From assembly GCA_001779095.1 (NCBI GenBank), contig MFJD01000001.1:266402-309668 (forward strand): a stretch of DNA of 43,267 nt, read 5' to 3'. The notes beneath the pieces were generated by a model. The model was given only the letters and a program-made list of their open reading frames with translations. It had not been told where the DNA came from and made no database searches. The first letter of the stretch is position 1. Each line of letters starts with the position of its first letter. The stretch is from Candidatus Gottesmanbacteria bacterium RBG_16_52_11 (lineage in GTDB: Bacteria; Patescibacteriota; Microgenomatia; UBA10105; UBA927). Position numbers and translations under genes: made by a program. Below, one piece after another: positions 2,369-20,231 of the stretch.

Positions 2369-3529
2369 ATGAACAAGCAACAATATTTCGTATACGGTTT
2401 TATCGGAATTGCCCTTTATCTGATATCGACCGGGCTTTCCTATGCTGCTTTCAGTGCCTACCGTACGGCAAATACACCGGCAAAGCCTGACTTACCTAAA
2501 ACGGACGGTTTTACGGTTGACCCGGGTTTACCCAAGACTGAGGAGTGTCCGATAAACGGAAAATTATTTACAAAACCGGAGAGGGATATTTGGGAAAAAC
2601 GCCGCCCGCTGGCGGTTATGATCGAAAACCATGAGGATTCCCGTCCGCAATCAGGCCTTTCGAAAGCAGACGTTATCTATGAGGCTGTCGCGGAAGGCGG
2701 TATCACCCGGTTCATGGGAATTTTTTACTGCGGCGTAGCTGAAAATACGCTGCTGGCTCCCGTCAGGAGTGCCAGAACGTTCTTCCTGCCTTGGGTATTG
2801 GAGTATGACGCCCTTTATAACCATGTCGGCGGAGCCGGCAGGTGCAATGACCCTACCGTTGACGAACGGGCAAAAGCGCTCTGCCAGATCGGCACCTGGA
2901 AGATCAAGGATATGGATCAATTCGGAATATCGTTCCCGACCTGCTATAGGAATTATGACCGGCTGGATCATCCGGTGGCGACCGAGCATACAATGGTCTG
3001 TTCTACGGATAAGCTTTATGCCTTGGCCGCGGCCCGGGGATGGACGGATGTAGACGAGAAAAACATACCGTGGGACCAGAAGTACCAGCCGTGGAAATTC
3101 AAGGATGATGCATCCCAGACAGACCGGGGTGCCGGCGGAGCAGTCAGTTTCGTAGCCTGGAAAGGCTATGAAACAGGGTATGGTGCCCGTTTTGATTACG
3201 ACCCGGCTACCAACTCCTATCTCCGCTTTACCGGAGGAGCACCCCACACCGATTTAGAGACCAAGCAGCAACTGACTGTCAGGTCGTTGGTGATTATATT
3301 TGCCAAGGAGACCGGACCGGTTGACGACCATGCGCATCTTCTGTATAACAACACCGGATCAGGTGAAGGCCTGCTTTTCCAGGACGGAAAATCCGTTAAA
3401 ATAAACTGGAAGAAACCTGACCGCAATGCCCGGACGAAGTTTTTCGATTCCGGCGGTAAGGAAATACTTTTAAACCGTGGACTTGTCTGGATTACAATGT
3501 TGCCCATCGGAACACCGGTGTCGTATTAA
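2369..3529 (+). CDS. DUF3048 (YerB-type) domain protein, membrane anchored
   Basis: The product is 386 residues from the ATG at 2369, which overlaps nothing and starts one base after the DUF4446 stop (TAA-T-ATG). A longer frame reaching back to 2240 would overlap that gene and adds no family sequence. A signal-anchor helix lies at about residues 8-28. The DUF3048 N-terminal domain follows ('RRPLAVMIENHEDSRPQSGLSKADVIYEA', 'GITRFMGIFYC', 'LAPVRSARTFF', 'YNHVGGAG'). The C-terminal domain ends 'LNRGLVWITMLPIGTPVSY'. Bacillus YerB is an extracytoplasmic lipoprotein of this family; the role is not settled. Envelope localisation is inferred from the anchor. Confidence 0.88.
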   Translation: MNKQQYFVYGFIGIALYLISTGLSYAAFSAYRTANTPAKPDLPKTDGFTVDPGLPKTEECPINGKLFTKPERDIWEKRRPLAVMIENHEDSRPQSGLSKADVIYEAVAEGGITRFMGIFYCGVAENTLLAPVRSARTFFLPWVLEYDALYNHVGGAGRCNDPTVDERAKALCQIGTWKIKDMDQFGISFPTCYRNYDRLDHPVATEHTMVCSTDKLYALAAARGWTDVDEKNIPWDQKYQPWKFKDDASQTDRGAGGAVSFVAWKGYETGYGARFDYDPATNSYLRFTGGAPHTDLETKQQLTVRSLVIIFAKETGPVDDHAHLLYNNTGSGEGLLFQDGKSVKINWKKPDRNARTKFFDSGGKEILLNRGLVWITMLPIGTPVSY

Positions 3530-3556
3530 TACGTACCTGCCCCCCGAAAGGAAAGT

Positions 3557-4141
3557 ATGATTCTTGAGGATATAATTATTTCCCGGGTCCGCGTGAAAGT
3601 ACTGTCCCTGTTTCTAGCCAATCCCGGGATGATGTATCACGTCCGGGATATCGTCAGGAAAGTCGGTGAGGAAATCAACGCTGTCCGCAGGGAACTGGCA
3701 CATTTGGAAAAAGCCGGAATGGTGACCAAGGAGCAGCGGGCCAACCGGCTGTTTTACATTTTCCGGAAAGACTATCCGCTCTATTTTGACCTGCTTGAAC
3801 TTATCGGTAAAACTACCGGACTGGGCTGGGATATTGTGAAAAACCGGGCTAAACTCGGGAAAATCAAGTACGCCATGCTTTCAGGCAGGTATGTCAGGGG
3901 ATTGCCGAAACAGGCACCGACTGATGTTGATCTGTTGGTCGTGGGTACGGTAGTCCTGCCGGAACTGGCTCAGCTGGTTAAGCAGGAAGAAACCAAACGC
4001 GAACGTGAGCTCAACTATACCGTCATGACTGAAGAAGAATTCACTTTCCGGAAACGCCGCCGCGACCCGTTTGCGCTGGCAGTACTTGGGGGATCCCGGG
4101 TTATGCTGATAGGCGATGAAGAAGAAATGGTCAGCGGCTGA
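3557..4141 (+). CDS. Winged-helix protein with nucleotidyltransferase-like C-terminal domain
   Basis: Residues 1-75 form an ArsR/MarR-like winged helix ('LANPGMMYHVRDIVRKVGEEINAVRREL' then 'LEKAGMVTKEQRANRLFYIF'). The C-terminal half has a nucleotidyltransferase-fold signature ('LSGRYVRGLPKQAPTDVDLLVVG'), with the DVD pair where the fold normally binds metal. Such fusions are common in CPR bacteria and usually annotated only as transcriptional regulators; targets are unknown. A Shine-Dalgarno sequence (GAAAGGAAAG) sits just upstream of the ATG. It lies 27 bp after the DUF3048 gene and may be co-transcribed with it. Whether the C-terminal domain is catalytic is open, because the usual GS pair is degenerate here. 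Confidence 0.7.
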   Translation: MILEDIIISRVRVKVLSLFLANPGMMYHVRDIVRKVGEEINAVRRELAHLEKAGMVTKEQRANRLFYIFRKDYPLYFDLLELIGKTTGLGWDIVKNRAKLGKIKYAMLSGRYVRGLPKQAPTDVDLLVVGTVVLPELAQLVKQEETKRERELNYTVMTEEEFTFRKRRRDPFALAVLGGSRVMLIGDEEEMVSG

Positions 4142-19120: not shown

Positions 19121-19156
19121 TATCACAAATTTTTGCATATGCGAATCTTTGTGATA
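19121..19156. promoter_or_regulatory. Long palindrome over the PaaX-like promoter (operator 1)
   Basis: Outer arms TATCACAAA (19121-19129) and TTTGTGATA (19148-19156) lie symmetrically around a perfect GCATATGC (19135-19142), all centred on 19138.5. The site covers the likely -35 (TTGCAT, 19133-19138) and the first bases of the -10 (TATCAT, 19155-19160), which ends six bases before the GTG start. Binding here would block RNA polymerase. A second site of the same geometry follows the gene. Confidence 0.8.
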
Positions 19157-19166
19157 TCATATTCCT

Positions 19167-19838
19167 GTGGCAGCAGAAGAATCCCGGCGCAGCGATAATA
19201 CAATGCCGGATCAGGAAATTGTGGTTCGTTTATGCGAATCCCTGATCCGTACTTCAAAAGCCCAGTCAGCCGCACAACAGCTGATCAGGACCCAACGGAT
19301 ACTGCAGTATTTCGGAATGGGTATTACGATTGCAGCGGCATTCCTCGCACCGCGCTCAGCTACCGGAATCGGCAAGTCGATTCTGAGTGACCAGCGTGAC
19401 AGCGAAATCCGTGAATGGGAAAAATACAATACAGGATACCTTAAGCAGACACTAAGGCGTCTTGAGAAGCAAAAACTGATTGAAAGGGTGAGGCAGGACG
19501 GGCGGGAAGTGCTGAAAATATCAGCGACCGGACGCACAAAGGTACTTTATAATGCACTGGAAAGCCTGGGTTTAACCTCAAAAAAATGGGATGGTTTTTG
19601 GCGGATAGTCATGTATGACATAGAGAATTCCCGGAAAAAGGAACAGTATCTCATCAGGAGATTATTCAGGAAATTAGGCATGTATCCGCTGCAGAAAAGC
19701 GTTTATTTGTTTCCGTTTCAGTGTTTTGACGAAATCGAGTATATCCGTTCACTGTACGGTTTAACCGGAAAGGTCATATACATTGTAGCCAAAACCATAG
19801 AGAACGACGGACCTTACCGGGAATTTTTCGGAGTCTGA
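19167..19838 (+). CDS. PaaX-like transcriptional regulator with Cas2-like C-terminal domain
   Basis: The 223-residue protein has an N-terminal helical part with a hydrophobic stretch ('FGMGITIAAAFLAP'), a winged-helix DNA-binding region ('YLKQTLRRLEKQKLIERVRQDGREVLKISATGRTKVLY'), and a C-terminal ferredoxin-like domain. That domain reads like Cas2: 'WRIVMYDIENSRKKEQYLIRRLFRKLGMYPLQKSVYLFPF'. This is the layout of PaaX repressors, whose C-terminal domain is Cas2-related. No CRISPR array or other cas gene lies nearby, so a regulator is more likely than an adaptation nuclease. GTG at 19167 lies six bases after TATCAT, so the mRNA should be leaderless. Palindromes at both ends of the gene suggest autoregulation. 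Confidence 0.82.
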   Translation: MAAEESRRSDNTMPDQEIVVRLCESLIRTSKAQSAAQQLIRTQRILQYFGMGITIAAAFLAPRSATGIGKSILSDQRDSEIREWEKYNTGYLKQTLRRLEKQKLIERVRQDGREVLKISATGRTKVLYNALESLGLTSKKWDGFWRIVMYDIENSRKKEQYLIRRLFRKLGMYPLQKSVYLFPFQCFDEIEYIRSLYGLTGKVIYIVAKTIENDGPYREFFGV

Positions 19839-19839
19839 A

Positions 19840-19873
19840 ATCACAGATGTTAGCATATGCAAATATCTGTGAT
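19840..19873. promoter_or_regulatory. Second long palindrome with identical geometry (operator 2)
   Basis: Arms ATCACAGAT (19840-19848) and ATCTGTGAT (19865-19873) lie around GCATATGC (19853-19860), centred on 19856.5. Distances from centre to ATCACA are 16.5 bases in both sites. It starts two bases after the stop codon and ends just before the -35 region of a downstream promoter. There is no T run, so terminator function is unlikely. Confidence 0.8.
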
Positions 19874-20006: not shown

Positions 20007-20077
20007 TGCGGGATCGTTCAACGGTAGGACGGCTGGCTCTGGACCAGTTAATCTTGGTTCGAATCCAAGTCCCGCAG
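20007..20077 (+). tRNA. tRNA-Gln (anticodon CTG)
   Basis: A complete 71-nt cloverleaf can be drawn. The acceptor stem TGCGGGA/TCCCGCA begins with the T-A pair typical of tRNA-Gln. The D stem is GTTC/GGAC with loop AACGGTA. The anticodon stem GCTGG/CCAGT holds loop CTCTGGA, anticodon CTG. The variable loop is TAAT and the T arm is CTTGG-TTCGAAT-CCAAG. The discriminator base is G. CCA is not encoded and must be added by the CCA enzyme. TATAAC (19988-19993) lies where its own -10 would be. Confidence 0.93.
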
Positions 20078-20231
20078 CAGAATTACTATGAACACGGATA
20101 TTCTTTATTCCGGACACAATGAAAAACCGCTGCACAATATTATGACGTAATTTGCCTTTCCGATACATCAGATTTATGCTTGATATAATTGTATGAAGGT
20201 TAAAACCAAAAAATACGGAAATGGCGGTTTT

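Follow-up and report, generated by a model that had tools for sequence, protein, structure and literature searches.

A small gene of Candidatus Gottesmanbacteria bacterium RBG_16_52_11, which codes for a winged-helix protein with a Cas2-like domain and lies between two matching 34-bp palindromes (here called P), looks like one case of an undescribed gene-plus-palindrome module that, judging from comparative sequence analysis, would regulate itself and is probably mobile at a slow rate. We found no description of the P-gene-P pattern in the open-access literature. What the relatives of this gene conserve is the geometry of P, the GC-K-A|T-M-GC at its centre and, most notably, the placement of the gene between two palindromes that are specific to it. 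The bracketing, the privacy of P to its gene, the anatomy of the half-sites, the solo copies of P and the presence or absence of units and solo sites can all be read directly from the genomes. The window, that is, the whole stretch of 43,267 nucleotides that was analysed, carries the following features:

19122-19155, unstranded: left palindrome P, 34 bp, within a symmetric run at 19121-19156; it overlies what would be the -35 region and the spacer in the promoter of this gene
19132-19160, plus strand: promoter-like TTTGCA-17-TATCAT with TG extension, overlapping left P
19167-19838, plus strand: gene for a 223-aa protein, wHTH plus Cas2-like/PaaX_M; GTG start, alternative ATG at 19203
19398-19562, plus strand: winged-helix part, residues about 78-132 (AlphaFold2 model)
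19581-19829, plus strand: Cas2-like/PaaX_M domain, residues about 139-221 (profile, alignment and AlphaFold2 model)
19840-19873, unstranded: right palindrome P, 34 bp, one base past the stop codon

The initial annotation had described palindromes at 19121-19156 and 19840-19873, and both lie exactly there: the symmetric run on the left reads TATCACAAATTTTTGCATATGCGAATCTTTGTGATA and the right palindrome ATCACAGATGTTAGCATATGCAAATATCTGTGAT, the latter following the TGA stop codon (19836-19838) after a single base, so that its placement directly past the stop also holds. A search of the window for ATCACA-N7-GCATATGC-N7-TGTGAT gave exactly two matches, even when three mismatches were allowed, and the same search gave none in 100 dinucleotide shuffles. 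The whole 1.47-Mb genome has six copies, all exact, of which two bracket the gene and four are solo; copies with one to three mismatches were not found in it. When the six sites are aligned, 25 of the 34 columns are invariant and the remaining nine vary freely (mean pairwise identity 0.37), which bears out the earlier proposal that the symmetric positions are kept and not the bases between them. Changes in these variable spacer columns are not compensated across the dyad. We read this as the pattern expected where a protein contacts certain blocks of a two-fold site and leaves the spacers free, and the fact that the solo copies keep all contact bases while their spacers drift suggests selection for binding. 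One of the solo copies lies about 88 bp upstream of alaS. A tRNA-Gln (CTG) gene is found at 20007-20078 of the window, 133 bp past the right palindrome, and an Rfam search returned tRNA only.

The ATCACA-N7-GCATATGC site had been proposed for a search beside homologues, and as such it is not what they share: among 58 related genomes only one (G010) has a near copy, with two mismatches, which rules out that the exact motif is kept in relatives. Palindromes are nevertheless present beside the close homologues, so that the absence which would have refuted the proposal is not observed; each homologue has its own near-identical pair (CCACATTATTTCGCATATGCGAAATAATGTGG in G010, ATCACAAAATTATGCACGTGCATAATTTTGTGAT twice in G005, TTGACAAATTACTGCTTAAGC... 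in G001, and others). At 68 of 81 homologue loci, taken from across the Patescibacteria plus one viral contig, the matched pair scores above the 99th percentile of 270 shifted controls, and among 30 PaaX_M loci drawn independently 15 score at least 46, versus 1 of 80 controls. The negatives of that draw are mostly long forms of about 240-284 aa. On the same scale the window gene scores 57 and E. coli paaX, which is not bracketed, 30. Most long forms close to the family of the window gene are likewise bracketed, their reading frame entering the right P and their right palindrome overlapping the stop codon; they are for this reason unsuitable as a negative control. The palindrome sequence is private to each gene and common to its two flanks. 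Taken together, the shuffles, the shifted controls and the independent draw rule out a chance origin of the bracketing palindromes.

Family presence is patchy, with PaaX_M genes in 64 of 192 species and 1-11 genes in each of these. All genomes are MAGs, in which palindromes may be misassembled. Several PaaX_M genes have in-frame stops (G134, G099, G165, G187, G113), which suggests decay of family copies. The window genome has a second PaaX_M gene, a long form (306-aa open frame) without palindromes (G000:C15:54961-55317, L011). The single relative on a viral contig is also without palindromes, and a phage or plasmid origin was set aside after finding no match in annotated phage or plasmid records. 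A relative in a Syntrophaceae MAG (L110) has one palindrome downstream, and may reflect either horizontal transfer or a binning error.

The assignment of the protein to a PaaX/Cas2-like wHTH group of the CPR is supported. The Pfam profile PaaX_M matches it with E 2.2e-13 (50.5 bits, cut-off 24), and the AlphaFold2 model (mean pLDDT 83.5) shows a winged helix and a Cas2-like ferredoxin domain, for which Foldseek ranks E. coli PaaX at the top, followed by other PaaX-like regulators and Cas2 proteins. In aligned relatives, Pfam finds PaaX_M in 80 of 80 and Cas2 in 64 of 80. With PaaX (the phenylacetate repressor, PDB 8a39), its best structural match, the protein shares a wHTH followed by a Cas2-like dimer domain and presumably also homodimeric palindrome binding; unlike PaaX, it is a short form without the PaaX C-terminal part, falls far below the cut-off of the NCBIfam PaaX equivalog TIGR02277 (17.8 vs 264.55 bits), has no paa (phenylacetate) genes among the ORFs at 14-25 kb of the window, and is bracketed, which E. 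coli paaX is not. With Cas2 it has in common the ferredoxin-like domain, the first-strand Asp and a Q-x-S-V motif. It differs from Cas2 in its winged-helix fusion, in scores below the Cas2 cut-offs (PF09827, 19.0 vs 23.8; TIGR01573, 18.8 vs 24.5) and in its association with palindromes; reading the ORFs at 14-25 kb by eye, we recognised neither cas1, or any other cas gene, nor a CRISPR array. Residues G122, D142, W145, R146, D151, Q176 and S178 are invariant in 80 sequences, D151 being the metal-binding Asp of Cas2 strand 1. No His or Tyr is conserved in at least 80% of these 80 members, Transposase_17/HUH and a catalytic Tyr are absent by Pfam scan and conservation check, and neither an HUH motif, a conserved Tyr nor a DDE-like signature is seen in the family proteins.

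Each half-site of P has three parts: an outer block (positions -17 to -12) that differs between genes and is mostly constant within a gene, an A/T-rich free spacer (-11 to -5), and a core (-4 to -1) that reads G-C-K-A in almost every gene. This tetramer is for the most part self-complementary, and its K varies independently in the two halves of P, as in a pair of dsDNA half-sites. Divergence of the protein and of P is correlated, with a Mantel r of 0.19 for the winged helix and 0.17 for the Cas2 part (p<=0.002). We infer from this anatomy that the winged helix may set the outer block while a common surface reads the core. In the mechanism that we propose, the protein would homodimerise through its Cas2-fold domain and the dimer would bind its own P, with the winged helices reading the gene-specific outer blocks (ATCACA/TGTGAT in the window) and a part common to the family reading the near-universal GC-K-A|T-M-GC. 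That each protein binds its cognate P is very probable.

Bound at the left P, on the promoter, the dimer would repress its own gene. The promoter overlap claimed by the initial annotation stands at the level of the family, where 65 of 82 genes have a -10-like hexamer after the left palindrome, as compared with 43-44 at three control positions. For the window gene taken singly, the call of TTTGCA-17-TATCAT is only suggestive, as a scan found two promoter-like matches where shuffles gave an expectation of 2.0; if it is correct, transcription would start near the GTG at 19167 and the mRNA would be leaderless. The enrichment of the -10 and the overlap in the window together make autorepression likely. 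Of the operator originally predicted for this CPR protein, the cognate palindromes and the promoter overlap stand, and the proposal proved too small and too specific in sequence. A pair of operators is too narrow a description: the downstream P, the solo copies and the units that are gained or lost whole speak for a module similar to REP/RAYT.

Solo copies of P usually number 1-10 per genome and are mostly intergenic; 24 of 32 fall in tandem gaps, about equal to the intergenic background, and their orientation does not decide between a mobile module and a regulator. Two are found in G005. A Yonathbacteria genome (G059) has six identical 34-mers, two bracketing and four solo, and the same core occurs at many loci of several genomes of its genus, family genes being present in 10 of the 16 genomes; the core is absent from five gene-less genomes (G067, G072-G075). 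One genome (G068) has palindrome copies and no detected gene. In another, G070, five family genes occur together with several families of palindromes, family A alone in seven copies. G069 has roughly ten solo copies. Solo P of this genome adjoin separate terminators, and this, with the uncompensated spacers of the window genome, led us to reject a simple hairpin or terminator as the main role of P. In G010 a solo P in the linker of an MtaB-like gene belongs to an insertion of roughly 52 bp, as judged by comparison with G008. Within an aminopeptidase reading frame of G005 (L141:110-143, contig 35) there is a 34-bp palindrome with one mismatch, where G016 has ordinary coding sequence of equal length; as the length is unchanged, this copy points to substitution or conversion and not to insertion.

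Whole units are also gained, lost and exchanged. Two Nomurabacteria loci (L091 and L103) are homologous (78%) along the 648 bp that run from one P to the other, and nowhere beyond them. In the genus of G059, G070 lacks the units of G060, G066 and G076 at the orthologous loci, and at one locus the unit of G065 is a different one from that of G070. At one solo site G070 has a family B palindrome and G063 one of family A', and the site is empty in G072, G065 and G067; a second site is occupied by family B, by family E or by an unrelated palindrome, or is empty, depending on the genome. One insertion in G069 shows a candidate 8-bp target duplication, AAAACCTA, which we regard as tentative, the intergenic regions of the other units being too diverged for target duplications to be defined. 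Near-identical units were not seen within any one genome (paralogues share about 72-74% DNA identity or less), so no recent jump was caught. Other units stay at one position in several species, with a dN/dS of 0.07-0.11, and such strong purifying selection means that the genes at these loci are not just decaying insertions. Together with the absence of near-identical copies, this selection suggests that turnover is slow.

The closest parallel in organisation is the RAYT (TnpA-REP) system, in which a Y1 HUH transposase gene (Transposase_17) always lies as a unit between two REP palindromes, further copies are dispersed intergenically, the palindromes carry a GTAG-type tag and mostly exceed 100 copies, and protein and palindrome diverge together, with complementary changes kept in the palindrome (PMC2817692). 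The family described here likewise has a gene between matching palindromes, dispersed extragenic copies, co-divergence of protein and palindrome, and palindromes that retain complementary changes. Unlike RAYT/REP, its protein is of wHTH/Cas2 fold without a conserved His or Tyr, and its palindrome is an untagged two-fold dsDNA site in few copies, not more than 100; no GTAG (or CGTC) end tag common to the family was seen when the palindromes were read by eye. As the defining chemistry of RAYT/REP is lacking, we do not file the module there despite the like organisation. It also resembles insertion sequences, being a compact one-gene unit with matching ends, patchy and pseudogenised copies, whole units present or absent at orthologous loci and, in long forms, an ORF that enters the right end. 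It departs from them in that each end is a complete palindrome, with no transposase catalytic signature, no clear target duplication and no near-identical copies. In our model, the right P would close the unit, the P-gene-P block would be gained and lost as a whole in the manner of a REP/RAYT-type module, and the protein, or host enzymes that it recruits, may spread P. We judge this combination, a self-repressing dimer with a low-activity REP/RAYT-type module without recognisable transposase chemistry, to have slightly better than even chances of being correct; the mobile-module character taken by itself is evenly balanced.

The main rival is that the protein is a host PaaX-type homodimeric repressor, with one operator on the promoter, a second past the stop (acting by looping or as a roadblock) and a tiny regulon of solo sites. 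The wHTH and PaaX_M fold with E. coli PaaX as best solved relative, the left P on the promoter, the invariant contact positions and variable spacers of the six genomic sites, the purifying selection, the in-gene P of G005 that evolved in place and the solo P upstream of alaS would all suit such a regulator. It accounts poorly for a palindrome right past the stop kept in most of a very diverse family, for genomes with as many as 11 family genes, of which all those tested have a P of their own, for solo positions that are mostly not common to species, for an intergenic site that holds different P families in sister species, and for the 34-mers of G059, identical even at non-contact bases. We slightly favour a mobile element over a host regulator walled in on two sides, and give the latter a realistic chance that stays short of even. 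Rather doubtful, and to be taken as one joint proposition, is the bolder reading of a novel class of mobile element of Patescibacteria, whose wHTH/Cas2-fold dimer would bind P, perhaps cut it, and spread units and solo copies by a mechanism unrelated to known transposases, its specificity having been re-invented repeatedly.

Beyond the 34 bp, many copies carry extra self-complementary bases, different in each copy (single arms reach 38 bp at solo sites of G069, L152-L159, and G070). A self-complementary run of at least 5 in the outer arms is found in 26 of 164 copies, where 0.8 would be expected, and between species the arms alter on both sides. This could indicate that P acts as a transcribed RNA or single-strand hairpin which serves stability or processing and which the Cas2-like domain binds or cuts. 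We consider this improbable, because the spacers of the window genome are uncompensated, the K positions of the core vary as in dsDNA half-sites, something not required of a hairpin loop, and template-switch copying at palindromes, our preferred explanation, accounts for the arms without an RNA function. The copy-specific arms look as if palindromes repair or copy themselves, and they may still have a structural role. A fold-back assembly artefact is unlikely for the arms in general, as they stop after a few bases and recur in many assemblies, and is possible at single contig ends (G070 C3/C4). At two family A palindromes of G070 (C3:8927 and C4:372) one flank is shared in opposite orientation, either through recombination at the palindrome or through misassembly. 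Elsewhere in G070 (C6, about 43480-43600; L192, about 3480-3600) a family B palindrome is split by a segment of roughly 77 bp, CTCCAAGTGAGCGAGCG...GAGATATTGTACCCAGTTAT, which resembles a MITE whose ends are half-palindromes; next to another family B palindrome (C2, just left of 107956; L165) there is a related copy, within a 21-bp direct repeat. Directional recombination of the loxP type (34 bp, 13-8-13) was rejected, since the orientation of the centre is mixed in bracketing pairs and the protein is no recombinase. Least probable of all is a chromosome-marking or nucleoid protein with few fixed high-affinity sites, which fits the few, strict, intergenic sites per genome and conflicts with the patchy presence (64 of 192 species; within one genus, 10 of 16 genomes), the unconserved site positions and the many private P in one genome.

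In conclusion, PaaX_M genes, which automatic annotation would label only PaaX or Cas2, are present in about a third of the sampled Patescibacteria species, with up to eleven in each, and the flanks of each gene directly give its predicted binding site. This would provide hundreds of protein-site pairs for the study of how winged-helix specificity switches. If the units move, they would represent a type of mobile element that uses a Cas2-like fold and would bear on the long-standing question of the origin of Cas2; if they do not, they would be an unusual family of regulators that wall in their own gene.
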